Source: Rhodocyclaceae bacterium (GTDB taxonomy: Bacteria; Pseudomonadota; Gammaproteobacteria; Burkholderiales; Rhodocyclaceae). From it: DNA of 41,262 nt. Of this stretch, positions 1 to 35,935 are shown piece after piece (positions within the stretch are counted from its first letter, which is position 1; the number at the start of each line of letters is the position of its first letter). The notes below the pieces were generated by a model. It saw only the letters and a program-made list of their open reading frames with translations, was not told the DNA's origin and ran no database searches. A program made the translations under genes and the position numbers. Where the stretch lies: assembly GCA_025353195.1 (NCBI GenBank), contig JANXRC010000112.1, forward strand, positions 1-41,262, written 5' to 3'.

Positions 1-2
1 CG

Positions 3-122
3 CAGATCTACCGTGGCCAAGCTGGCCATCGGCTGCAACAGGCGCAAGGCAATTCGCGGCCGTCGGACCTGCCGCAAACCGTTGCCGCCTCCCGATCAGC
101 CTGTCACCGCGCCCAGGTCTAA
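3..122 (+). CDS. possible 3' end of an unidentified gene (partial)
   Basis: One plus-strand frame is open from the window edge to a TAA at 120-122 and reads ..QIYRGQAGHRLQQAQ.. before the stop. If real, it is the tail of a gene convergent with the FecR-domain gene at 140. No family is recognised. The other plus frames are also open for most of this stretch, so coding status is uncertain. Confidence 0.2.
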   Translation, partial: QIYRGQAGHRLQQAQGNSRPSDLPQTVAASRSACHRAQV

Positions 123-139
123 CGGCGGCAATCTGCCAC

Positions 140-2194
140 TCAGCGCTTGAATGCGATTGCCCCGGTCACGCCGCCCGAAGTGCCGTAACCGTAGGTGAAC
201 GCAACGCCTGCTGCCTCGGCATTCGGGCCGGCAAACATGCCTCCGAAAGAACCGCCCAATGTGTTGCCGAGGGGGTTCGCGCAAGTTCCAGTGCAACTGC
301 CGCTGGCGAAGGCGGCGCTGAAGCGTCCCGAGACTGCGCTGAAACCAGAACTGCCACTCATTGAATAGACACTGCCATTCGTATTGCTGGCCGTGATGCC
401 AACAGTCATGTTGCGATTGACGAAATCCGCCGTGAGCATCGCGCTGTTCAGACTCCCATTGATATTGGCATTCACGACCGATCCGATCGGCGAATAGCTT
501 ACCGTACCCAGCGTTGCCGGAAGTGTCTGGGTGGCCTGACCGACTATCCAGGGAAGATTGAAGCCGCTACTGCTCGTATACGAGGCGTAGTTATAGTCGA
601 CCACCTGTGCTCCGCTGCCGTTCCAGTAGCCCCAGCGCAGGTTGCCCGGCCCGCTGTCGGACCCCACCACGACATTGCCTGCAGTGCCCAGACTCGCCCG
701 GCGATTCCCCGCCGGCGGCCCGATCCGCGTCAGCGAGCCGGCCGCGTCCACTTGCACGTCCCAGAATGCCGAGGTTGAAATCACCGACCCGTTGCCGCCG
801 CCAGGATAGTTCGGGATTATTGCGGCAGCGGCCAACTGATTGGGCGGTGTCTGCTGCGGTACGGCGACGGTAAAGGTGCCACCGCCCGTGGCGGCATTTG
901 AACCGGAGAAGGTCAAGCTTGCCTGCGATCCGCTAATCGTTCCCGACACGCTTAGCGTATCAAGAAAGCCTACCGTGTTGCCGGGGCCGCAGGTCGAACA
1001 GCGGAACGCTCCTTGCTGCGTCGGGTAGTCGGCGCGGTTGGCGCTCCCGCTGAACGTTATGGTGCCACCCGAAATAGTGACCGGAATGCCATCCGAGTTG
1101 GACGGGGTACCGACGTTGAAGAACCCTCCCGAGTTATCCTGGAACGCCACGTTCACATAAGCGCGCTGCAGCACCAGGCTGACCCCGAGGACGACTTCGT
1201 TGATCGTGGCGTTTCCACAAGGTCCGTTTGTACAGGCGCTGACCGGTACGGTGCCACCGGTCAGGCGAAAGAACAGGATCGGCGAACTCGTGGTCGGCTG
1301 GACCAGCGTCGTGGGTCCTGATACGGCAACTTGATTGGTCGTCTGGAACGGAACAACCGTTACCACAGTCGGTAGCGTGCCGCCGCCAGCGCTCGAGGTT
1401 ACGCGACTGTCACCATTGGTGGCGCCCTGGCCCGTCTGTGCGACCGTTGTTGAGGACTCCGAGCCGCCCCCGGACTGGGACGAGGAGGCAGTCTGCTGCC
1501 CGCCGCTTGCACGTGCCCGCCCTTCCAGTACGTCGCGCAGGAAGCCCGGCGGTGCGATGATTCGCTGTGGCGCGGCAGCAGCGCTGGGTACCTGGAAATA
1601 CTGGTTGGCGCCAAACAGGCGCTCGCCGGTCTGGTTGGTGACCGCTATGCGGCCGTCGGTTACCGCGCCATACGTCCCGTTGGATGCGACACTGCCGTCG
1701 GCATTCCGGCAGTTGCCATCACAGTGCACCAGCGTGTAGTTGGTGCCTCGAATGCCGATCGTCGATGTCGGCGTCGTGACCTTGTAATCGTTGTCGTGAG
1801 TGAGTTTGCCGATCAGACCCGTCACCGTCCGCATGCCGCCCTTGGCAAGGTTGAAGAAGGCGCGCTGGAAGCCGCCCGGTTCGGCGTTCTTGAACGAGTA
1901 TTCGCTGACCTTGAATGTCGTCTCGGGCCGCAGCGCGACCATCGAGTCGTCGGTGAATAGGACCTGGGCGTTGGACTGTGCTCCCAGTTGCAGCGTGTCG
2001 CCGGAACGCACTTCACTGCCGCGCTGGGCAGTGATGGTCTGTGAACCACGTTCGATCTTCACGTCGCCGATCGCGATCAGCACCCTGCCGGCGACCTCCT
2101 GCGCGTGCAACGTTGATGAGCAGAGCAATGCCGCGAAAATGGACAGCAGCGATGCCGTGTGCGCAGTGAAGATCCTCGACTTACTTGAATTCAT
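140..2194 (-). CDS. FecR-domain protein with C-terminal TbpB-like barrel, probable T11SS cargo
   Basis: The start is set at the internal ATG (MNSSKSRIF), giving 684 aa, because a signal peptide follows directly (about residues 1-32, ending LHA before QE); the longer track ORF runs back into the upstream gene. The peptide has no lipobox, so the product should be soluble after export. Residues ~35-200 form an FecR domain (VAGRVLIAIGDVKIERG, then RSGDTLQLGAQSNAQVLF). A Ser/Gly/Gln/Thr-rich linker follows. The C-terminal ~350 residues carry features of the TbpB-type beta-barrel found in Slam substrates: RWGYWNGSG, LPWIVGQATQTLP, then TADFVNRNMTVGI and the closing GGMFAGPNAEAAGVAF. The gene overlaps the Slam-like gene by 14 bp and is probably co-transcribed. 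Ligand unknown; haem or metal binding as in hemophilins would be a guess. The domain calls are firmer than the secretion role. Confidence 0.8.
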   Translation of the reverse strand: MNSSKSRIFTAHTASLLSIFAALLCSSTLHAQEVAGRVLIAIGDVKIERGSQTITAQRGSEVRSGDTLQLGAQSNAQVLFTDDSMVALRPETTFKVSEYSFKNAEPGGFQRAFFNLAKGGMRTVTGLIGKLTHDNDYKVTTPTSTIGIRGTNYTLVHCDGNCRNADGSVASNGTYGAVTDGRIAVTNQTGERLFGANQYFQVPSAAAAPQRIIAPPGFLRDVLEGRARASGGQQTASSSQSGGGSESSTTVAQTGQGATNGDSRVTSSAGGGTLPTVVTVVPFQTTNQVAVSGPTTLVQPTTSSPILFFRLTGGTVPVSACTNGPCGNATINEVVLGVSLVLQRAYVNVAFQDNSGGFFNVGTPSNSDGIPVTISGGTITFSGSANRADYPTQQGAFRCSTCGPGNTVGFLDTLSVSGTISGSQASLTFSGSNAATGGGTFTVAVPQQTPPNQLAAAAIIPNYPGGGNGSVISTSAFWDVQVDAAGSLTRIGPPAGNRRASLGTAGNVVVGSDSGPGNLRWGYWNGSGAQVVDYNYASYTSSSGFNLPWIVGQATQTLPATLGTVSYSPIGSVVNANINGSLNSAMLTADFVNRNMTVGITASNTNGSVYSMSGSSGFSAVSGRFSAAFASGSCTGTCANPLGNTLGGSFGGMFAGPNAEAAGVAFTYGYGTSGGVTGAIAFKR

Positions 2195-3494
2195 ATCGCA
2201 CCTTGAGAGCAAAGAGATCGCGCGGGAAAGTGTAGAGCTCGATGTTCGAATGGTTGCGTGCAGTAGTGATCTCACCGCGGAAGGACAGGTTACGCGAATA
2301 AAGGTAGGACGCTGCGATATCGATCGCCTCATAACGGTCGGAGCGCTTCACGCCGAGCAGCGCATCGACCTCCTTGTAATCCGAGTTGAGCAGCGTGTAA
2401 CCGAACGACACCCCCCATTCTGCTGCAGGCGTAAAGCTGACACCGATGCGGCCGCCTGATGTTCTCGGTACCAGGTCGTTACGGTTGTCGAGGGTATATT
2501 GCTCGCCGGCATTGAGCGAAACATTCAGAACAGGTTGCAGCGGATGGGCGAACAGCCTTCGGTAGCCGGCGGCCAGGCCGACGAAATCCGCATTTCGCGG
2601 CTGGTTGGGGTTCGCGTAAGTGAGACGCCCCGCTTGCGCACCGAGTGTAAACGCCTGTTGCTCATCGATCTGGTACTGCCATTCGCCTTGGCCGGCGTGG
2701 GTCGCCAGGTAACTGTTGTTCCCCATATGGAGCTGGCTTTCGCTCGCTCCCAGGCGAAGCAGGTGCTTTTCGTTGAGCCACGACGCACCACCGCTCAGAT
2801 TGTAGTTTTCTGAATTGTAGAGATGGTTTTCGGACTTGTCGTTGTACTTGAAGTCAAGCTGCCCGCTGCCGAACAAAGCTATGCCCGGGGCGACCGGGTA
2901 GGAGATGTAGCCGCCTGCTCCGAGGCTTGTGAAATTATCGCGCTGCTTGGTACCGCCTTGCGCGATCAGAACCGGACCCAGATTTGGCAACACGATATTG
3001 GGGCTTGCGACGCCACCATTGACGTTCGAATCAGCACCGATTCCGACCTCGACATACATCGACTGCGTCACCGAATAGCGGGATTCCCGCAACCGGATCA
3101 CGTCCAGAAACCGGTCGATGGTCGCCGCGACATCGGCAGGTGGCGAGAGCTTGCGCAGCGCCTCGAACTCGTCCCTGGCACGGGCATCCTCGCCGAGAAT
3201 GAAGTAGCCCCGGGCAAGTTGAAGCCGAGCCGAGGTGTTGTCCGGAAACTGCAGCAGATAGCGCTCGAGAGCCAGCACACCCTCGCCGGCATGACCGCTC
3301 TCGACCGCCGCAATGCCGAAATAGAAGTCGAACGCCGAATCACCGAACGAATCCCGTGACTGTCTGCCGGCAGCGTAAGCATCGGCCAGCTTGCCGGCTT
3401 CGACCAATGCCTTGACGTCTTCGACCGGGGTGGCGAGGGCGCAAACCGGAAGCGCAAGCGCCGCAATCAGGCAAAGATGGTGCTTGAGTTTCAT
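2181..3494 (-). CDS. Slam/T11SS-like outer membrane protein (TPR + DUF560-type barrel)
   Basis: The start is placed at MKLKHHLCLIAALALPVCALA, a clear Sec signal peptide (437 aa); an ATG three codons earlier is also possible. The track start lies far upstream and has no signal. Residues ~25-150 are TPR-like helices (SAFDFYFGIAAVESGHAGEGVLALERYL). The rest is a beta-barrel rich in alternating aromatic strands, beginning with the VGIGADSNVNGG signature typical of the DUF560 family and ending VRYEFK. Slam/T11SS proteins move lipoproteins or soluble hemophilins across the outer membrane, and their genes usually sit beside a TbpB-barrel cargo. Here such a protein is encoded immediately downstream with a 14-bp overlap. 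The length is slightly short for the family but both domains appear complete. A plain TPR porin is the alternative. Confidence 0.75.
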   Translation of the reverse strand: MKLKHHLCLIAALALPVCALATPVEDVKALVEAGKLADAYAAGRQSRDSFGDSAFDFYFGIAAVESGHAGEGVLALERYLLQFPDNTSARLQLARGYFILGEDARARDEFEALRKLSPPADVAATIDRFLDVIRLRESRYSVTQSMYVEVGIGADSNVNGGVASPNIVLPNLGPVLIAQGGTKQRDNFTSLGAGGYISYPVAPGIALFGSGQLDFKYNDKSENHLYNSENYNLSGGASWLNEKHLLRLGASESQLHMGNNSYLATHAGQGEWQYQIDEQQAFTLGAQAGRLTYANPNQPRNADFVGLAAGYRRLFAHPLQPVLNVSLNAGEQYTLDNRNDLVPRTSGGRIGVSFTPAAEWGVSFGYTLLNSDYKEVDALLGVKRSDRYEAIDIAASYLYSRNLSFRGEITTARNHSNIELYTFPRDLFALKVRYEFK

Positions 3495-3524: not shown

Positions 3525-3553
3525 ATTGTTTCTGATCAAGCTACTTCTGTCAA
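3525..3553 (-). promoter_or_regulatory. sigma70-type promoter for the T11SS-FecR operon
   Basis: On the minus strand a perfect -35 TTGACA (3548-3553) is followed after 17 bp by AACAAT (3525-3530, four of six consensus bases). It ends 30 bp upstream of the chosen start codon of the Slam-like gene, and no other gene intervenes. The call rests on hexamer match and spacing only. Confidence 0.55.
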
Positions 3554-3663: not shown

Positions 3664-5904
3664 TCAGTTCGCCACGCAATCCACGTAGTAGCGCACGGCG
3701 CCATTGCTGGCGTCCTTCACCAAGCCGTGAATGTCGGTCTCGAAACCGGGGAACTTCTCGTTGAACTCGCGGGCGAACTTCAGGTAGCGGACGATCGTGG
3801 CATTGAAGCGCTCGCCGGGAATCAGCAGCGGAATACCCGGCGGATAGGGCGTCAACAGCACCGCGGTAACGCGGTTTTCCAGCTTGTCGATGGATACGCG
3901 GTCGATTTCCCGGTGCGCCATCTTGGCAAACGCGTCGCCCGGACGCATGGCCGGCACCATGCTGGACAGATACATCTTGGTCGTCAGGCGGGCGACGTCC
4001 CTGGCCTTGTACACCTCGTGGATCTGGGTGCACAAGTCCTTGAGGCCGACCCGCTCGTAGCGCGGATGCTTGACCACGAACTCGGGCAGCACCTTCCATA
4101 GCGGATGGTTCCGGTCGTAGTCGTCCTTGAACTGCTGCAGGGCGGTGACCAGGGTGTTCCAGCGGCCCTTGGTGATGCCGATGGTGAACATGATGAAGAA
4201 GGAATAGAGGCCGCACTTCTCGACGATCACACCGTGTTCGGCGAGGTACTTGGTGACGATCGCCGCCGGAATGCCATTGTCATCGGAAAAGGCCCCATCG
4301 ACGTCGAGTCCGGGGGTAATCACGGTGGCCTTGATCGGATCGAGCAGGTTGAAGCCCTTGGCCAGCTTGCCGAAGCCATGCCAGCGCGCGCCGGGCTTGA
4401 GCATCCAGGCGTCGCGCTCCTCGATGCCTTCCTCGGATAGGTCGTCCGGACCCCAGACCTTGAACCACCAGTCGGCGCCCCATTCCTTGTCCACCTTGCG
4501 CATGGCGCGGCGGAAATCCAGCGCCTCGGCGATGGACTCCTCGACCAGCGCCCTGCCGCCCGGCTCCTCCATCATCGCCGCAGCGACATCGCAGGAGGCG
4601 ATGATCGAGTATTGCGGCGAGGTCGAGGTGTGCATCAGATAGGCCTCGTTGAAGACGTCGCGGTCGAGCTTGTTGTTCTCGGCGTCCTGCACCAGGATCT
4701 GCGAGGCCTGCGAGAGGCCGGCCAACAGCTTGTGCGTCGACTGCGTCGAGAACACCATCGACTCCTTGCAACGCGGGCGGTCGGCGCCGATGGCGTGATA
4801 GTCGCCGTAGAAATCGTGGAAGGCGGCATGCGGCAGCCAGGCTTCGTCGAAGTGCAGGGTGTCGATCTTGCCGTCGAGCATTTCCTTGATCTCTTCGACG
4901 TTGTAGAGGATGCCGTCGTAGGTGCTCTGGGTGATGGTCAGCACGCGCGGCTTGGCGTTCTTGTCGGTGGCGAAGGGATGCGCGGCGATCTTCTTCTGGA
5001 TGTTCTTCCAGCGGAACTCCTCTTTCGGGATCGGCCCGATGATGCCGTAGTTGTTGCGCGTCGGCATCAGGAACACCGGGATCGCGCCGGTCATCATGAT
5101 GGCGTGCAGGATCGACTTGTGGCAGTTGCGATCCACCACCACGATGTCCCCCGGCGCCACCGTGGAATGCCAGACGATCTTGTTCGAGGTCGAGGTGCCG
5201 TTGGTGACGAAGAACAGGTGATCGCAATTGAAAATTCGCGCGGCGTTGCGCTCGGAAGCCGCCACGGGGCCAGTGTGGTCGAGCAGCTGGCCGAGTTCCT
5301 CGACCGCGTTGCAGACGTCGGCGCGCAGCATGTTTTCGCCGAAGAACTGGTGGAACATCTGGCCCACCGGGCTCTTGAGGAAAGCGACGCCGCCCGAGTG
5401 GCCGGGGCAGTGCCACGAGTAGGAGCCGTCCGCCGCGTAATGCACCAGGGCGCGGAAGAAGGGCGGCGGCAGCGAATCCAGATAGGTCTTGGCCTCGCGC
5501 ACCACATGGCGGGCGATGAATTCCGGCGTGTCCTCGAACATGTGGATGAAGCCGTGCAGCTCGCGCAGGATGTCGTTCGGGATGTGGCGGCTGGTGCGAG
5601 TTTCGCCGTGCAGGAAGATCGGGATCTCGGCGTTCTTGTAGCGGATTTCCTCGACGAAGGCGCGCAGTTCGGCGATGGTTTCCTTTTCGCGGTTGGCCAG
5701 TTCCTCGTCGTCGACCGAGAGGATGAACGCCGAGGCCCGGCTTTGCTGCTGGGCAAACGAGCTCAGGTCGCCGTAGCTGGTAACGCCCAGCACATCCATG
5801 CCTTCTTCTTCGATGGCGTCCGCCAATGCACGGATGCCGAGGCCTGAAGCGTTTTCGGAACGGAAGTCCTCGTCGATGATGATGATCGGAAAGTGGAAGC
5901 GCAC
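3664..5904 (-). CDS. class I Orn/Lys/Arg decarboxylase (AdiA-like, PLP)
   Basis: This 746-aa protein is a fold-type I PLP decarboxylase of the large bacterial group that includes AdiA, LdcI and SpeC/SpeF. Residues 1-130 are the response-regulator-like wing domain (FPIIIIDEDFRSENASG). The PLP domain includes SWHCPGHSGGVAFLKSP, NGTSTSNKIVW and HFDEAWLPHAAFH, with the cofactor lysine in STQSTHKLLAGLSQ (about K391). The C-terminal domain is complete. The length is close to AdiA (about 755 aa), so arginine is a reasonable substrate guess, but lysine or ornithine cannot be excluded. The start is GTG, supported by GAAGGA about 8 bases upstream. It lies 16 bp downstream of dcd and is probably in one operon with it. 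The product would make a diamine or agmatine for polyamines or acid resistance. Confidence 0.9.
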   Translation of the reverse strand: MRFHFPIIIIDEDFRSENASGLGIRALADAIEEEGMDVLGVTSYGDLSSFAQQQSRASAFILSVDDEELANREKETIAELRAFVEEIRYKNAEIPIFLHGETRTSRHIPNDILRELHGFIHMFEDTPEFIARHVVREAKTYLDSLPPPFFRALVHYAADGSYSWHCPGHSGGVAFLKSPVGQMFHQFFGENMLRADVCNAVEELGQLLDHTGPVAASERNAARIFNCDHLFFVTNGTSTSNKIVWHSTVAPGDIVVVDRNCHKSILHAIMMTGAIPVFLMPTRNNYGIIGPIPKEEFRWKNIQKKIAAHPFATDKNAKPRVLTITQSTYDGILYNVEEIKEMLDGKIDTLHFDEAWLPHAAFHDFYGDYHAIGADRPRCKESMVFSTQSTHKLLAGLSQASQILVQDAENNKLDRDVFNEAYLMHTSTSPQYSIIASCDVAAAMMEEPGGRALVEESIAEALDFRRAMRKVDKEWGADWWFKVWGPDDLSEEGIEERDAWMLKPGARWHGFGKLAKGFNLLDPIKATVITPGLDVDGAFSDDNGIPAAIVTKYLAEHGVIVEKCGLYSFFIMFTIGITKGRWNTLVTALQQFKDDYDRNHPLWKVLPEFVVKHPRYERVGLKDLCTQIHEVYKARDVARLTTKMYLSSMVPAMRPGDAFAKMAHREIDRVSIDKLENRVTAVLLTPYPPGIPLLIPGERFNATIVRYLKFAREFNEKFPGFETDIHGLVKDASNGAVRYYVDCVAN

Positions 5905-27128: not shown

Positions 27129-30100
27129 ATGACTAGCCGACTAATCAAAAGCATCAGTCTGGCGCTGCTATTTCTGGGCGCCGCTTCCGGCACCCAGGGT
27201 GCCGCCACCAGCATCGCGTCGGCACCCCTGGTGACATCTTCCGCCTCGGCGGTACTGCCCAACCTGACATTCATACTTGACGATTCCGGCAGCATGGCCT
27301 GGAACTACCTGCCCGACTGGGCCAGCGGCGCCCCCACCGTGCTGGCCAGAAACAACCGCTACAACGGAGTGGCCTACGACCCGGCCGTAATCTATCAGCC
27401 GCCGGTTCGGTACGCTGCGGACGGCACGCTGGACACCGCCACCTATCCCGGCCAGGCTGGAACCTCTGCCGCGACAGGGGCCAACACCGGCGCCGCCATG
27501 CCCAACTGGAAAGTGGTCAAGAACGATGCGTATGGCGTGCAAACCACCAGCACCACTGACCTGACCGCTGTCGCCTACTTTTACACCTTCCTGCCGGGTG
27601 AGTTTTGCACCGATGGTCACCTGCACAACTGCACGACCGGTTCCGCGCCGACCACGACCAATCCCAAGACAGCCTACCTGCGCTGGTGCGACAGCTCGGC
27701 GCAGACCAATAATGCAACACCGTCAGCAACCACGCCCAAGGGCTGCCAGTCGGCGTGGACCTCGGGCGCTTTCAATAACGCGCGTTATCCGGGGCTATTC
27801 ACCGGGACCCCGGCGACCAGCGTATTTACCGTAGCGACGGCGGCATCAAACCCGACGGTTACCAGCATCAAGGCCAACGGCCTGGAAATCCTCTCCGCCA
27901 CAACCGCAGGTTCCACCACGATAGCCACGGTCGCCGCCAATATCGTCGCCGGGATCAATGCCTGTACCGATTTCGTCACCGGCAATTGTCAGGTGGCGGG
28001 CTATAGCGCCGCCCTAAGCTCCACTTCCACGGTAACCATCACGGCGCCGACGACCATCGGTTCGACGGCGATCAACGCCAACACCTACTCTCTGGTGATG
28101 GCATTTACCAACACACTGACGACGACGAGCCCCACCAAGAGCGGCGCGTCGCCGTTCACCATGACCGCGTTCGCCGGATACAGCCTTGCGGCCGGCCAGG
28201 TCAACGTGCCGGGGCGCAACGTGCGCACCAACATCGTGTCGACCAACAACAGCTATCCCTATCCGGGCACCACCACCAAGGCATCCACACGCTCGGACTG
28301 CGCCGGCACCACCTGCACCTACGTCGAGGAAATGACCAACTACGCCAACTGGTTCACGTACTATCAGACGCGCATGCAGATGATGAAGACTTCGGTCAGC
28401 ATCGCCTTCAGTCCGGTGGGGCCCAAATACCGCGTGGGATATTTCAGTATCGACAACAATACCGGCACCGATTTCCTCAATGTGTCGGATTTCAACATAA
28501 CGCAGAAACGGGCGTGGTATGCCAAGCTGTTTGCTGCCCAGCCGAACAACAGCACTCCGCTGCATCCGGCGCTGACCAATGCCGGACGCATGTATGCCGG
28601 CAAGTTGAATGGCAGCACCTTCAACGGCAGCGTCGTCGTCGATCCGATGCAGTATTCCTGCCAGCAGAATTTCACCATCCTGTCTACCGACGGCTACTGG
28701 AACCTCGGCAGCGGCTATCAGCTCAATGGCACGACCACGGTCGGGCAGCAGGACGGCAACGAGATCCGGCCGTTTGTCGACTCCAGCATCGTCACCGACA
28801 CGACGGTGACGCCGTGGAGCAAGGTTGACCGCAAGCAGACTGTTACCCCCGTCACCGTCACCACGCCCTATACGCGCACGGTGACCACCGTATCCGCCAT
28901 CACACAGCCGACGTCGTGCCTGGCCGACAACAAGGCGAATTCAGCCGGCACCAAGACCAGGACCTGGTGCATTACCATGACCAACACGGCCAGCTCCGAT
29001 TGCAAGACCCTCGACAGCGGAGGCACCCGCGTTTACGCATGCCGTGGCTCGACCTCGTCGGGCCTGCCGCCCGGGGGCGCAGCGTGCCAGACCGATCCGG
29101 ACAATGGCCATACCTATTGCATCTACAGTGGCAACAGCACCATCGGGGCGAGTCGCTGCCAACAGGTATATTCAGGCAATACCTTGTATGCTTGCGACAT
29201 AAACGGCTTGTCCAGCGTCAGCGTCCAGACCCAGACCGCCAACGAGACCTCCACGGGAACCACCACCTCGATCGACGACTTTACCTCGACCTACAACAGC
29301 ACGGTGGTGACCACCAACGGTGTTGCCGCGCCGCCGACCAACAGCGCCGTCACGGTGAGCAGCGCCAACGTCACCCCGGCCACATTTGCCGCGACGACGC
29401 CATCGGACGATACCGGCGTCCCGGCTGCAGGGGCGTATGTCAACAGCGGTGCCCCGGTGGTCACGAGTACCAGCACACCGCCGGCCGCCGGGGCGTCACC
29501 GGGTACGGCCGGCTCACCGGTCAACACCAATGGCACACCGGTGGTCACCACCACGATTCCCGGGACCTATGCGGCAGGAGCCGCGACCACAACCAGCGTC
29601 GGCACCGGCGGCACCGCGAATACCCTGGCCGATGTGGCCGAGTACTACTACAAGACGGATTTGCGCACCACGGCATTGAGCAATTGCACCGGCGCGATCG
29701 TGCCTCCGGCGACGGCTGGCAGCGATGTGTGCAGCAACGACGTACCTGCCACAGGCGACGATGCGGCTTCCTGGCAGCACATGACCACCTTTACCCTGGG
29801 CCTGGGGGCGTCCGGCTACATGCTGTTCTCGCCCAGCTATGCGTCGGCAACGGCCGCCGGCGATGACTTCTTTGCCATCAAGAACGGCGAGAGTGCCAAC
29901 AGCGTCGCCGGCATCTGCAGGTGGCAAGCCGATGGCACGACCTGCAACTGGCCGACTCCGGTCAGCAACACGCAGACCACCATCGACGACCTCTGGCACA
30001 CCGCCATCAATGGCCGCGGCACCTACTTCAGCGCTACCAGCCCGGCGACACTGGCTTCCGGTTTGAGCAGTGCCTTGTCAAGCGTAAGTGCCCGCATCGG

Positions 30101-33059
30101 CGCTTCGGCCGCGGCGACCACCAGCAACCCGAACGTGACCTCGGGCGACAACTTCGTCTTCAGTTCCACCTTTTCCACCCAGGTTTGGGACGGAGAGCTG
30201 GTGCGGCAGCAAATCGACCTGACCACCGGCATCGTGTCGTCGGCAGTCGACTGGCACGCCGAAGAGAGGCTCGACCTCCAGACGTATTCGGCTCGCAACA
30301 TTTACACCTTCGATTCCGGCGCCGCGAACAAGCTGAAATCATTCACCTACGCCGGTTTGACGGCGACCGAGAAGACCTACTTCAACACCCCCGCCATCCT
30401 TGGCTTGACCCAATTCTGCGCGTCCGGCGCCACCTGCCTGAGTTCCACCGACCAGAGCAGCGCCGCCGGCGCCAACCTGGTGAACTTTCTGCGCGGTCAG
30501 CGCACCAACGAGGGGATTGCCAGCGACACGAGCAAGTACTACCGCCAGCGCAATCACCTGCTTGGCGACATCGTGACGGCCGAGGCAGTCTACGTAAAGA
30601 AATCCCTGTTCCAGTACCTCGATCGCGGCTACCTGAAGACACCGGACGGCACCACCTTTACGCCCTTCGTCACCACCAACAATACGCGTCGGGGCATGGT
30701 CTATGCGGCGGCCAATGACGGCATGCTGCATGCCTTCTATGCGGCGTCGGCGCCCTGCACGACGCTGCCGAACCCGTCGGCCAACCCGCCGGTCACGGCC
30801 GTTCCCGCAGATTGCGATCCCGATGTCACGACGGGCGCCGCCGTATCAGGCGGGGACGAGGCATGGGCCTACATACCCGCGCTGGTCATGCCCAATCTCT
30901 ACAAGCTGGCAGACAAGAATTATCCCAATCAACACAGTTATTTCGTTGATGGAACGCCGGTGGTGGCTGATATCTGTACCGCCAACTGCAATGCAACACC
31001 CAAGGTGGTCAAAAGCGGCGAAACCACCAATTTCATTATCGCCTCGATCAGCTGGGCGGCCGGGGTGGCGACCGTCACCACCAACGACGCCAATGGTTTT
31101 TCGCCGGGGATAGCCGTAATTCTCAGTGACGTCGCGGCCAATGGCTACAACGGTACCTTCACGATCGTGGCCATACTGAGTCCGACCACATTCACGTTCG
31201 CGCTGGCGGCGAATCCGGGCGCCAGCCCCAACCCGGTGTGGAAGACGATTCTGGTCGGCGGCCTGAACGCCGGCGGGCGCGGCTACTACGCGCTGGACGT
31301 CACCGACCCCTTGGCGCCCAAGGCGCTGTGGGAATATACCGACAGCAACATGGGCTTCACCTTTGGCAACCCCGAAATCGCCAAGCTCAAGGATGGCACC
31401 TGGGCGGTCATGGTGACTTCGGGCTACAACAACCTGTCGCCCGGAGACGGCATCGGCCGCCTGTACGTGCTCAATGCAAATACCGGCGCCGTGATCCGCA
31501 TCATCAGTACCGGCACCGGCACGCCGGCCGCCACCGTATCGACCGCGTCCTGGTCGGCCGGCAGCGCGACGATAACCACGACAGCCGCCCATGGCTTTGC
31601 GGTCGGCAATTCGGTCACGGTCACGGGACTCACCCCCGACGCATACAACGGTACCTTCACCGTGACCGCCGTGCCAACTACGACCACATTCAAGTATGCG
31701 CTGACCGCCAATCCGTTCGTGACGATCCCCGGTCTCGTAAATTCGCGGGCAGTCAGCGCAGCCTCGTGGTCGGCAGGCACGGTAACCATGGACACCACGG
31801 CGACCCATGGCTTGAGTGTCGGCAGTGCCATCACCGTCACCGGTTTTGACAATGCCAATACGGGTTACAACGGCAGCTTCATCGTGACCGCCGTTCCCAG
31901 TGGAACGCGCTTGCAGTATGCACTGGCGTCCGATCCGGGCGGCTGGACCCCGGTAGGCTTCGAAGCGGTCAGCAGGAGCGCATCCGTTGCAACGCCCTGG
32001 GCCGCCGGTGCAGCGACCATCACCACCGACACGGCGCATGGCTTCAGCGTAGGCAGCACGGTCACCATCGCCGGCTTTTCACCCAGCGGCTACAACGGTA
32101 CGGTCACCGTGACCGCCGTGCCGACGACGACCACGTTCAGGTATGCGCTGGCCGCCGACCCGGGCGCGACCGGAGCGGTTGCCGGGGGCACCCCGAGCAA
32201 TCTTGGCCACATCCGCGCCTGGGTAGATAACGCGACGAACGACAACACGGTCCAGCGCGTATACGGCGGCGACATGTTCGGCAACGTGTGGCGCTTCGAT
32301 GTCAACGGTGACATCGGTGCGGCGGGATACGATGCCCAACGCCTGGTGACGCTTTACACCGACGCGACGGGTACCGCGACGCAGCCGATCAGCAACAGGC
32401 CCGAGCTCGGCGAGATAACGGTAGGCAGCACGAAATATCCCGTGGTCTACATCGGCACCGGCCGCTATCTGGGCACCCCGGATCTGACGGATCTGTCGCA
32501 ACAGACAATGTACGCCATCAAGGACAGCATGGGCAGCACTTCCCTGGGCAATCCTCATGACGCCGCGTCGAAATTTGTCCAGCAGGTGCAGACCAACACG
32601 CTATGTCCGACCGGCACGCCGACCCATATCTGCCGTACCGGAGAAATCGTGCGCACCACCACCAACAATGCGGTGGACTTTTCGACCAGGAACGGCTGGT
32701 ATGTCGACTTCCCGGACCCTGGCGAGCGTGACAACACCGACCCTGTGCTGCAGCTGGGAACTCTGGTATTCAATACCAACGTCCCCAACGTCAGCGCCTG
32801 TACGGCGGGCGGCTACAGCTATACGTGGTTCCTCGACTACAGGACCGGCGGCGCCGTATCCAGCTCGACGACAGGTGTCTCGGCGCGCAGACTCGGCAGC
32901 GCGCTGGCGACGCGGCCGACGGTGGTGCGCCTGCCCAACAACACGGTGGTGGCCTTGACCCGACTGTCGGACAGTTCAACCACGACATCCGACGTCGCGA
33001 TCGGCTCCGGCGCGACCAATACCAGGCGCGTTTCCTGGCGCGAGTTGATTTCCGAGTAG
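27129..33059 (+). CDS. pilY1: PilY1 pilus-tip adhesin/anti-retraction protein
   Basis: At 1976 aa it is longer than classical PilY1 (about 1160). A Sec signal peptide (SLALLFLGAASGTQGAA) leads to a VWA-like N-terminal half starting LPNLTFILDDSGSMAWNYLPD with a MIDAS-type DxSxS. This half is split by insertions (Thr/Ser-rich near 230-330 and a low-complexity NSGAPVVTSTSTPP stretch near 740-830). The C-terminal PilY propeller has WAYIPALVMPNLYKL, YFVDGTPVVADI, a Ca-site-like YGGDMFGNVWRFDVNGD and ends FLDYRTGGAV..RRVSWRELISE. Four tandem modules are inserted in the propeller (residues ~1301-1678). PilY1 caps the pilus, mediates adhesion and surface sensing. The ATG has AAGGA 8 bases upstream. 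Confidence 0.92.
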   Translation: MTSRLIKSISLALLFLGAASGTQGAATSIASAPLVTSSASAVLPNLTFILDDSGSMAWNYLPDWASGAPTVLARNNRYNGVAYDPAVIYQPPVRYAADGTLDTATYPGQAGTSAATGANTGAAMPNWKVVKNDAYGVQTTSTTDLTAVAYFYTFLPGEFCTDGHLHNCTTGSAPTTTNPKTAYLRWCDSSAQTNNATPSATTPKGCQSAWTSGAFNNARYPGLFTGTPATSVFTVATAASNPTVTSIKANGLEILSATTAGSTTIATVAANIVAGINACTDFVTGNCQVAGYSAALSSTSTVTITAPTTIGSTAINANTYSLVMAFTNTLTTTSPTKSGASPFTMTAFAGYSLAAGQVNVPGRNVRTNIVSTNNSYPYPGTTTKASTRSDCAGTTCTYVEEMTNYANWFTYYQTRMQMMKTSVSIAFSPVGPKYRVGYFSIDNNTGTDFLNVSDFNITQKRAWYAKLFAAQPNNSTPLHPALTNAGRMYAGKLNGSTFNGSVVVDPMQYSCQQNFTILSTDGYWNLGSGYQLNGTTTVGQQDGNEIRPFVDSSIVTDTTVTPWSKVDRKQTVTPVTVTTPYTRTVTTVSAITQPTSCLADNKANSAGTKTRTWCITMTNTASSDCKTLDSGGTRVYACRGSTSSGLPPGGAACQTDPDNGHTYCIYSGNSTIGASRCQQVYSGNTLYACDINGLSSVSVQTQTANETSTGTTTSIDDFTSTYNSTVVTTNGVAAPPTNSAVTVSSANVTPATFAATTPSDDTGVPAAGAYVNSGAPVVTSTSTPPAAGASPGTAGSPVNTNGTPVVTTTIPGTYAAGAATTTSVGTGGTANTLADVAEYYYKTDLRTTALSNCTGAIVPPATAGSDVCSNDVPATGDDAASWQHMTTFTLGLGASGYMLFSPSYASATAAGDDFFAIKNGESANSVAGICRWQADGTTCNWPTPVSNTQTTIDDLWHTAINGRGTYFSATSPATLASGLSSALSSVSARIGASAAATTSNPNVTSGDNFVFSSTFSTQVWDGELVRQQIDLTTGIVSSAVDWHAEERLDLQTYSARNIYTFDSGAANKLKSFTYAGLTATEKTYFNTPAILGLTQFCASGATCLSSTDQSSAAGANLVNFLRGQRTNEGIASDTSKYYRQRNHLLGDIVTAEAVYVKKSLFQYLDRGYLKTPDGTTFTPFVTTNNTRRGMVYAAANDGMLHAFYAASAPCTTLPNPSANPPVTAVPADCDPDVTTGAAVSGGDEAWAYIPALVMPNLYKLADKNYPNQHSYFVDGTPVVADICTANCNATPKVVKSGETTNFIIASISWAAGVATVTTNDANGFSPGIAVILSDVAANGYNGTFTIVAILSPTTFTFALAANPGASPNPVWKTILVGGLNAGGRGYYALDVTDPLAPKALWEYTDSNMGFTFGNPEIAKLKDGTWAVMVTSGYNNLSPGDGIGRLYVLNANTGAVIRIISTGTGTPAATVSTASWSAGSATITTTAAHGFAVGNSVTVTGLTPDAYNGTFTVTAVPTTTTFKYALTANPFVTIPGLVNSRAVSAASWSAGTVTMDTTATHGLSVGSAITVTGFDNANTGYNGSFIVTAVPSGTRLQYALASDPGGWTPVGFEAVSRSASVATPWAAGAATITTDTAHGFSVGSTVTIAGFSPSGYNGTVTVTAVPTTTTFRYALAADPGATGAVAGGTPSNLGHIRAWVDNATNDNTVQRVYGGDMFGNVWRFDVNGDIGAAGYDAQRLVTLYTDATGTATQPISNRPELGEITVGSTKYPVVYIGTGRYLGTPDLTDLSQQTMYAIKDSMGSTSLGNPHDAASKFVQQVQTNTLCPTGTPTHICRTGEIVRTTTNNAVDFSTRNGWYVDFPDPGERDNTDPVLQLGTLVFNTNVPNVSACTAGGYSYTWFLDYRTGGAVSSSTTGVSARRLGSALATRPTVVRLPNNTVVALTRLSDSSTTTSDVAIGSGATNTRRVSWRELISE
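31032..32163 (+). repeat. four ~60-aa repeat modules inside pilY1
   Basis: Modules lie at about 31032-31230, 31534-31722, 31744-31937 and 31968-32163. The shared pattern is W(S/A)AG.(A/V)T, then HG(F/L).VG..(V/I)T(V/I), YNG(T/S)...V.AV and (F/L).YAL...P. Modules 2 and 4 share most DNA bases over the YNG-to-YAL segment, so they were duplicated or homogenised recently. A PilY propeller segment separates module 1 from the other three. Confidence 0.85.
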
Positions 33060-34147: not shown

Positions 34148-35935
34148 ATGCCCCGCCTGCAACGCGACATTCTCCTTGGCTTTGCTCTGATCTGCGCGCT
34201 CGCGATCGGCCTGGCGTCGTCGAACCTGCTGCGCTGGGCCGATCAATCCCTGTATGACGCGCAGACGCGCTGGCTGCGTGCCCATGCGCCATCAGCGCTG
34301 CCCCAGGACGTGGTGGTGATCGGCCTCGATGAGGCCGCCTACGAGTCGATTCTCGAACCTTCCGCCCTTTGGCACAGGCATCTGGGCGACCTTCTCAGCG
34401 GACTGGCCGAAGCCAGACCGGCCGTGGTCGGACTGGCCACGGCGCTGCCGGTGCGCTCCTACGATTTTCTGATCAAGGGCATCGACGCGCCGCTGATCGA
34501 CGGCATCAAGCGACTGCGCGCGGCTGCTCCCCTGGTGGTAGGGCAGCCAATGGGCATTGGCCGCCAGTTGCGACCGATCGCACCCGAACTGCTGGCTGCG
34601 GCTGGCAATGACAGAGTGGCATCGCTGGCCATCTGCGAAGACGCCGACGGCACGGTGAGGCGCGTCTACCAAGCGCGCTGCCTCACCGAGGACAAGCACG
34701 AGCCCTTCGCTCACGCCATGGCCAGGCATCTGGGGCGGGAAGGTACCCGCACCGGCATGATCGATTACAGCGCCGGGGGAGAGATCGAGTACATCCCGTT
34801 CCGCGAGGTGCTCAGCTGGATTCGTCTGGGCGAGACCGATCAGTTGAGAAACCGTGTGCAAGGCCGCGTGGTGGTGGTGGCCAGCCTGCTGCCGACGGAA
34901 ATCCGCTACCGCCTGCCGGTCTCGCTGGCGGCATGGGAGCGCGGCAGCCGCACCGAGCCGGGCGCCGTGGTGCACGTGCAGGCCCTGCGTTCGCTGCTCA
35001 GCCGCGGCCTGATCGAGCGGATATCCGAACCCCTGTCCCTGGTGCTGGCCGGGCTCGGCGCGCTGCTCTGGTTCGGTCGCAACGGCTGGCGCAAGCTGGC
35101 CGCGGTACTGGGCGCGGGTGGCGCAGTGGTGGCGGGCGCCACCTATGCAATCTGGCAGGGTTACTATCTGCATTCCGGGACCCTGCTCGCCATCATTCTG
35201 ATGGCATTTCTGGCGCGCCTGGTCTGGGAGTCCGGGCGCCATTACCGTGAGAAGCAGTTGTTGCGTTCCGCATTCGCCGGGCATGTCAGTCCGCAGGTGA
35301 TGCGCGCCATTCTGGGCGGTGCGCTGCAACCGGATGCGGACGGCGAGCAGTGCAAGGTCACCATCCTGTTTGCCGATATCCGCGGCTTCACCGCACGCAG
35401 CGAGAACTCGACCCCGGAAGCCATGATCCGCCTGCTGAACCGCTATTACGCCGAGGTCTCGGCGGCGATCCACGCCCGCGGCGGCGCCATCGACAAGTTC
35501 ATCGGTGATGGCCTGATGGCTACCTTCGGCGTGCCGCAGCCCCTGCCGGCGCCGCAGCGCAACGCGCTGGAAGCGGCGCAGGACATGCTAGTGCGCGTTG
35601 CGCGACTGAACACCGAACTGGTCGCCGAAGGCCTGGCGCCGCTCGAAATCGGCATCGGCATTCATAGCGGCGAAGTTCTGGCCGGCTATGTGGGTTCGCG
35701 CAAGCGTCGCGATTTCACCGTGATCGGCGATCCGGTCAATACGGCGTCACGCCTGGAGGGCATGACCAAGACGGTAGGCTACCCGGTGGTCTGCTCCCAT
35801 GAAGTGGCGGCTGCCGTGGGCTTTGCCGGCGGACTGGTGGACCTCGGCGTGCAGGACATCAAAGGCCGTTCCGCGCTCCATCTGTGGGGCTGGAATCCGC
35901 CCCTGGCAAAGCGCGTGAAGACGAGGGCGCCTTGA
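34148..35935 (+). CDS. CHASE2-domain class III adenylate/guanylate cyclase
   Basis: This 595-aa membrane protein has TM1 (ILLGFALICALAIGLASS), a periplasmic CHASE2 domain (~28-295: RWADQSLYDAQTRWLRA, VVVIGLDEAAYE) and about three helices (~298-365). The cyclase domain follows (~390-560) with KVTILFADIRGFTARSE, KFIGDGLMATFG and RDFTVIGDPVNTASRLEG. Both metal-binding aspartates (FADIR, GDG) are present; the substrate is probably ATP, but this was not tested by specificity residues in detail. It would make cAMP in response to an extracytoplasmic cue. Its stop overlaps the likely TTG start of the MlaE-like permease, which ties it to the lipid transport operon. Confidence 0.9.
   Translation: MPRLQRDILLGFALICALAIGLASSNLLRWADQSLYDAQTRWLRAHAPSALPQDVVVIGLDEAAYESILEPSALWHRHLGDLLSGLAEARPAVVGLATALPVRSYDFLIKGIDAPLIDGIKRLRAAAPLVVGQPMGIGRQLRPIAPELLAAAGNDRVASLAICEDADGTVRRVYQARCLTEDKHEPFAHAMARHLGREGTRTGMIDYSAGGEIEYIPFREVLSWIRLGETDQLRNRVQGRVVVVASLLPTEIRYRLPVSLAAWERGSRTEPGAVVHVQALRSLLSRGLIERISEPLSLVLAGLGALLWFGRNGWRKLAAVLGAGGAVVAGATYAIWQGYYLHSGTLLAIILMAFLARLVWESGRHYREKQLLRSAFAGHVSPQVMRAILGGALQPDADGEQCKVTILFADIRGFTARSENSTPEAMIRLLNRYYAEVSAAIHARGGAIDKFIGDGLMATFGVPQPLPAPQRNALEAAQDMLVRVARLNTELVAEGLAPLEIGIGIHSGEVLAGYVGSRKRRDFTVIGDPVNTASRLEGMTKTVGYPVVCSHEVAAAVGFAGGLVDLGVQDIKGRSALHLWGWNPPLAKRVKTRAP

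Follow-up and report, generated by a model that had tools for sequence, protein, structure and literature searches.

Does the overlapping gene pair near the start of a Rhodocyclaceae contig encode an exporter together with its own cargo? The pair lies on the minus strand of a 41,262-nucleotide stretch (contig JANXRC010000112.1, assembly GCA_025353195.1), referred to here as the window, at exactly the coordinates given in an earlier first-pass annotation. The upstream open reading frame (2181–3494; ATG at 3494, stop codon 2183–2181, 437 amino acids) is taken, from homology and a predicted structure, to encode a divergent outer-membrane protein of the type 11 secretion system (T11SS; Slam/DUF560 type). 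The downstream open reading frame (140–2194; ATG at 2194, stop codon 142–140, 684 amino acids) encodes a FecR-domain protein which, as indicated by Pfam, a structure model and Foldseek, has a C-terminal TbpB-like barrel and is the probable T11SS cargo. Because the two frames overlap by 14 bases (2181–2194; ATGAATTCAAGTAA), the exporter and the FecR protein are probably translated together by translational coupling. A promoter-like match, which is a weak kind of evidence, is located 5′ of the exporter gene at 3553–3525. The pair and the GPNAE-type motif of its downstream product both recur in dozens of genomes, and hence are not due to chance.

The reading that we favor, with a probability of roughly three in four, is that the pair constitutes a self-contained type 11 secretion module, in which a Slam-type translocon would export a dedicated, non-lipidated FecR cargo across the outer membrane. 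It is based on the predicted folds, on the fact that each of the two proteins is homologous to a T11SS component, on the conserved pairing of the genes and on the finding that, among FecR proteins, only those linked to T11SS carry the barrel. We infer the secretion of the FecR protein and the direction of its transport, as well as the ligand of FecR and its final location.

In the model of the FecR protein, residues 564–683 (146–505, minus strand) form an eight-stranded TbpB-like barrel, as delimited by DSSP, profile and Foldseek. The best Foldseek match among solved structures is TbpB, followed by HphA/hemophilin, LbpB, NHBA and fHbp, with probabilities near 1; all of these are known Slam/T11SS cargo folds. 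The TbpB-like barrel on which the first-pass annotation had made its proposal depend is thus present in the predicted C-terminus. Over the model as a whole, TM-scores to TbpB are low, which is to be expected when several domains are joined by disordered stretches; the structural evidence therefore stands at the domain level. Independently of the structure model, a profile of 34 cargo C-termini (A5) has five matches in the Protein Data Bank (PDB), all of which are TbpB/LbpB (best E 7.4e-5), with the alignment running through the F-x-G-P-x-A motif. Pfam TbpB_B_D is matched by 5 of the 34 C-termini and HphA_C by one, and the window cargo sequence alone gives no PF01298 match in Pfam. The GPNAE motif of Slam substrates that had been noticed in this barrel (residues 656–660; 215–229, minus strand) is real, and sits within a conserved G-x-F-x-G-x-x-A motif that aligns among relatives and with TbpB.

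The two genes occur together in many genomes. Among relatives, 32 of 37 T11SS reading frames have a FecR gene as a neighbor in the same orientation; in most cases the two overlap or are separated by no more than about 100 bases. In species-representative genomes, 30 of 35 T11SS loci include a FecR gene, and in the remaining five the T11SS gene is at a contig end or broken; these 35 loci are mostly from betaproteobacteria, and also from Oceanospirillum and Chromatiales. The scan of the genome collection used three close T11SS sequences, as the diverse 30-sequence alignment is too variable. In a class-wide sample, T11SS genes of this type were found in 40 of 276 genomes, with FecR adjacent in 27 of the 29 loci fetched. 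A genome has only about three FecR genes on average (304 counted across 86 genomes), so that this adjacency is far beyond chance. The co-occurrence that the first-pass annotation had left to be counted is therefore near-universal, and the FecR protein is no rarity of the window genome but the usual partner in this T11SS clade.

Like the pairing, the barrel is tied to T11SS genes. Counted over distinct proteins, by matches to either of two related profiles (A5 and A6; hhalign E 2.7e-16), it is present on 47 of 56 T11SS-adjacent FecR proteins and on 0 of 19 FecR proteins encoded elsewhere (Fisher p 2.4e-11, uncorrected for relatedness). The window's own genome encodes four FecR proteins, two of which are beside T11SS genes and carry the barrel, which is absent from the other two; the only other occurrence of the barrel in this genome is a copy of the window barrel at a contig end.

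The exporter consists of a signal peptide followed by a TPR (tetratricopeptide repeat) domain and a 14-stranded barrel. Its AlphaFold2 model, built from 30 sequences, has eight helices up to residue 139, followed by 14 long strands that extend to the C-terminus (mean predicted local distance difference test score, pLDDT, 90.6). The periplasmic TPR-type helices (residues 23–139; 3078–3428, minus strand) match Pfam TPR_19/TPR_16 (E 8e-4 to 1e-3), and the outer-membrane barrel (residues 143–436 by DSSP; 2187–3068, minus strand) has pLDDT values mostly above 90. The ADSNVN motif noticed at the barrel start is borne out by sequence and alignment (residues 154–159; 3018–3035, minus strand), and 30 relatives all have the same residues in the columns of G153, D155 and N157. 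When full-length homologues from 101 related genomes were aligned (A1), PF04575 (SlipAM, DUF560) was matched by 23 of 30 (best E 1.5e-23); TPR_Slam, too, is matched by several of them. T11SS membership of the window exporter rests on these homologues, its own PF04575 match being absent; of the TPR plus DUF560-type barrel layout proposed at the outset, the TPR and the 14-stranded barrel are thus reproduced in the model, and the DUF560 match is seen in relatives but not in the window protein alone.

At the N-terminus of the cargo, a hydrophobic stretch ending in LHA-QEV is a Sec signal peptide by inspection, and similar N-termini occur in most relatives. The window cargo has no lipobox, i.e., no lipid anchor; most exporter partners have an Ala-x-Ala signal peptide, and a loose lipobox pattern is passed by 7 of 90. 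Soluble T11SS cargos exist (PMC12282271). The FecR domain named in the first-pass annotation matches PF04773 at 33.3 bits, above the Pfam cut-off of 24 (residues 66–157; 1724–1999, minus strand; E 6.9e-8). The corresponding FecR-like domain is modeled with confidence from residue 34 to about residue 212–222 and is followed by a disordered linker, an all-beta region of several strands with lower confidence in the model (residues 306–446; 857–1279, minus strand), and a pedestal-like region whose alignment columns show a conserved W-G-x-W motif (W521; 515–682, minus strand). As mean identity among cargos is 40% for the FecR domain and 25% for the barrel, the better conserved FecR domain is probably the working part of the cargo.

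In the mechanism proposed from homology, Sec would export the FecR protein to the periplasm, where the Slam-type translocon would recognize its C-terminal TbpB-like barrel; Skp might assist, as it does for TbpB (PMC9090332). The cargo would then cross the outer membrane, to be displayed on the surface or released. The role of the FecR domain would most likely be to bind or anchor, and not to regulate in response to iron citrate. There are precedents for FecR domains outside the cell: Lsa33 is a FecR-domain protein at the surface that binds laminin and plasminogen (PMC3444417), and a type II exoprotein of Legionella is an extracellular FecR-domain protein (PMC12239567). The Leptospira surface proteins LipL45 and Lsa33, both with a FecR domain, are also the best NCBIfam matches of the cargo FecR region, far below the model cut-offs; unlike the window cargo, they are lipoproteins without a TbpB-like barrel.

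The location of the FecR domain admits another possibility, in which only the barrel is exported while FecR folds in the periplasm as a retention plug, such that the non-lipidated cargo spans the outer membrane in the style of LapA- or CdrA-type proteins. The general absence of lipoboxes would suit such an arrangement, as would the cargos at loci L179 (7525–9750) and L183 (7409–9496), in which N-terminal LysM/FimV-type peptidoglycan-binding domains (FimV-like in L179) precede FecR and the barrel. The NCBIfam LapA retention module (NF033682) is weakly matched by 11 of 24 cargos (best E 6.4e-6), but these matches are under the curated cut-off and the window cargo has none. Known T11SS cargos cross the outer membrane whole, and the export route differs from those of LapA and CdrA. 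Cleavage of FecR cargos by LapG is also unsupported: no LapG family protein (PF06035) is encoded in the window's own genome, and LapG-type cleavage motifs after FecR are not enriched (5 observed, 5.9 expected). Retention is therefore possible but clearly the less probable arrangement, and we lean toward export of the whole protein over periplasmic retention.

A sibling Slam-like family does adjoin LapG-type proteases. At L188 (3785–9341), L189 (2390–10172) and L192 (1345–6758), remote Slam-like genes lie beside genes for PF06035 proteases and a dCache-PAS-HD sensor, and the partner proteins end in TbpB_B_D above the Pfam cut-off (33.3, 31.8 and 27.7 bits), which suggests a protease-linked T11SS-like module. 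A FecR anchor, sometimes LysM-FecR, might then provide a third route to retained and possibly releasable surface proteins, after the LapA-type adhesins of type 1 secretion and the CdrA-type adhesins of type 5b secretion, with the LapG-linked family as a regulated form; this idea is more doubtful still than retention itself.

Several observations weigh against the secretion-module reading. No barrel is detected on the exporter-adjacent FecR proteins of L061/L124, L109, L083 and L173/L174: the partners at L061/L124 and L109 have a different C-terminal domain, the two FecR proteins of L083 are both barrel-less, and the L173/L174 partner is a 254-residue protein with FecR only. A barrel hidden in another frame was sought in L061, L083, L109 and L124, and none was found. 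Since a minority of partners have no detectable barrel, the barrel cannot be the sole route to T11SS partnership. There are two ways to account for this: FecR by itself may suffice for partnership, or the cargos in question may have changed. T11SS distances also correlate more strongly with those of FecR (0.81) than with those of the barrel (0.69), and the barrel is therefore not singled out as the co-evolving part. The window exporter alone has no PF04575 match in the Pfam search. Direct Pfam, NCBIfam and single-sequence PDB searches with it yielded only TPR models together with weak matches to barrel models and to TPR_Slam, and the top PDB matches listed by Foldseek are polysaccharide and general porins (including BcsC, PelB, OmpG and CymA), with no Slam among those listed.

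The barrel-less partners (L173, L174, L109, L124 and L083) would be explained if the FecR protein, instead of being cargo, assisted or regulated the exporter from the periplasm, with the true cargo encoded elsewhere. Other secretion systems, too, have FecR proteins beside them: at L095 (2617–5705), the neighbors of a two-copy barrel-less FecR protein are a TpsB/FhaC-like gene and a large exoprotein of repetitive sequence (named by inspection). This explanation is nevertheless improbable, because the cargo-marking barrel is carried by most partners and is absent from FecR proteins away from T11SS genes; even in the window's own genome it is confined to the two T11SS-linked FecR proteins and the contig-end copy.

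The porin matches raise the further question of whether the exporter is a TPR-barrel polysaccharide porin of the BcsC, PgaA or PelB type, with the FecR protein as a matrix-associated accessory. BcsC and PelB head the Foldseek matches, and there are weak matches to EpsL and BcsC models, but the exporter model has 14 strands, as do T11SS proteins, rather than the 16 of PgaA (PMC8406197). In addition, no polysaccharide synthase genes are seen beside the pair, the homologues match SlipAM and the partners bear the T11SS cargo barrel, which together make a polysaccharide porin very improbable. Iron signaling, in which the FecR domain would sense iron citrate or another ligand and signal via a sigma factor like the FecR of the Fec system, is rejected as scarcely credible: the cargo shares with Fec regulators a PF04773 match and an N-terminal domain resembling the solved FecR-like anti-sigma factor 4m0n in Foldseek, but PF04773 is its sole Pfam match at E up to 1, the other domains of anti-sigma FecR proteins are absent, and among neighbors of decarboxylase, dcd, folA, recR and rluB types no sigma factor, TonB receptor or other regulatory gene is seen by inspection and marker search. 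The idea that a FecR cargo extends the T11SS cargo range is thus supported, in that a FecR protein, usually with the barrel, is the standard partner in this clade, and neither of the two findings named in the first-pass annotation as refuting has overturned it; the suggestion of signaling attached to it is unsupported.

As a secretion module, the pair resembles known T11SS (Slam1/TbpB, HpuA, HrpB/HrpC, HsmA/hemophilin and NilB/NilC) in that a TPR plus 14-stranded translocon of the PF04575 family adjoins a cargo gene, and in that the cargo is predicted to be Sec-exported, with a pedestal-like region before a C-terminal eight-stranded TbpB-like barrel. Unlike known T11SS cargos, it has an N-terminal FecR domain (PF04773) instead of a heme- or transferrin-binding handle; unlike known T11SS loci, no TonB receptor or heme gene is seen adjacent, the hosts are environmental, and the exporter is too divergent for a direct PF04575 match. 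The order of N-terminal effector, pedestal and C-terminal barrel is that of the cargo architectures of Grossman et al. 2025 (PMC12282271), but none of the approximately 10 architectures described there, from clusters 1 and 3 only, includes FecR. FecR is unmentioned in both T11SS cargo surveys, of 2021 (PMC8406197) and 2025 (PMC12282271), and no open-access paper on a T11SS/DUF560–FecR pairing, or with both T11SS and FecR in its text, was found in a search that left aside subscription papers and database annotations. On the best reading, T11SS itself being already known, the new part would be a non-lipidated FecR-type cargo.

Every T11SS cargo that has been verified belongs to the same animal-associated cluster (PMC8406197, PMC12282271), and the other nine clusters of the 2021 survey, mostly from water and soil bacteria, were without characterized proteins (PMC8406197). 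Here, a large environmental clade in beta- and gammaproteobacteria is paired almost without exception with a FecR protein, which usually bears the barrel. If the reading is correct, this would be the default cargo for much of the uncharacterized T11SS family, and FecR in these organisms would shift from a regulator to a surface or extracellular protein. Two-gene constructs, together with natural N-terminal swaps on the same barrel, would then lend themselves to testing what T11SS recognizes.

Such swaps are seen at three loci. L062 (2923–4545) has a C39-like peptidase domain on a T11SS-type barrel, without FecR, beside a close T11SS homologue. L089 (4034–6436) and L091 (1107–2858), from the same bacterial family, encode T11SS-type barrel proteins without FecR beside T11SS genes; there are two in tandem in L089, with a lipoprotein-like start by inspection. 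These swaps fit the succession of effector, pedestal and barrel described for T11SS cargo (PMC12282271). A single contig of Oceanospirillum sediminis carries two T11SS–FecR pairs (L126, 6335–11326; L127, 6329–11323), the cargos of which exceed 1,660 residues and contain repeated barrel-like units.

The pair is embedded among housekeeping genes. In the window, its upstream neighbor, outside the system, is an Orn/Lys/Arg decarboxylase gene (3664–5904, minus strand; Pfam), which is the same neighbor in five other loci; a decarboxylase gene and dcd flank one side in several genera. In other lineages the pair is flanked by an rluB-like gene and a recR-like gene (both identified by inspection). Inspection and a marker search, short of full annotation, recognized no ECF (extracytoplasmic function) sigma factor or TonB receptor in these neighborhoods. 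folA is downstream in seven loci, including contig C24 of the same genome, which overlaps the window end. Window positions 1–492 and C24 positions 1–489 (L096), both at contig starts, are 97% identical over 492 bases, and the expected folA lies beyond; a second barrel copy on C24 was therefore rejected in favor of overlapping contig ends, probably arising from strain variation. Such synteny, and not function, may also be part of the reason why T11SS is reported to co-occur with nucleotide and one-carbon genes (PMC12282271).

Farther along, the window contains genes for a PilY1-type protein (27129–33056) and a CHASE2-adenylate/guanylate cyclase (34148–35932). A biofilm operon of Burkholderia encodes a LysM-FecR protein together with a CHASE2 histidine kinase (PMC5192318).

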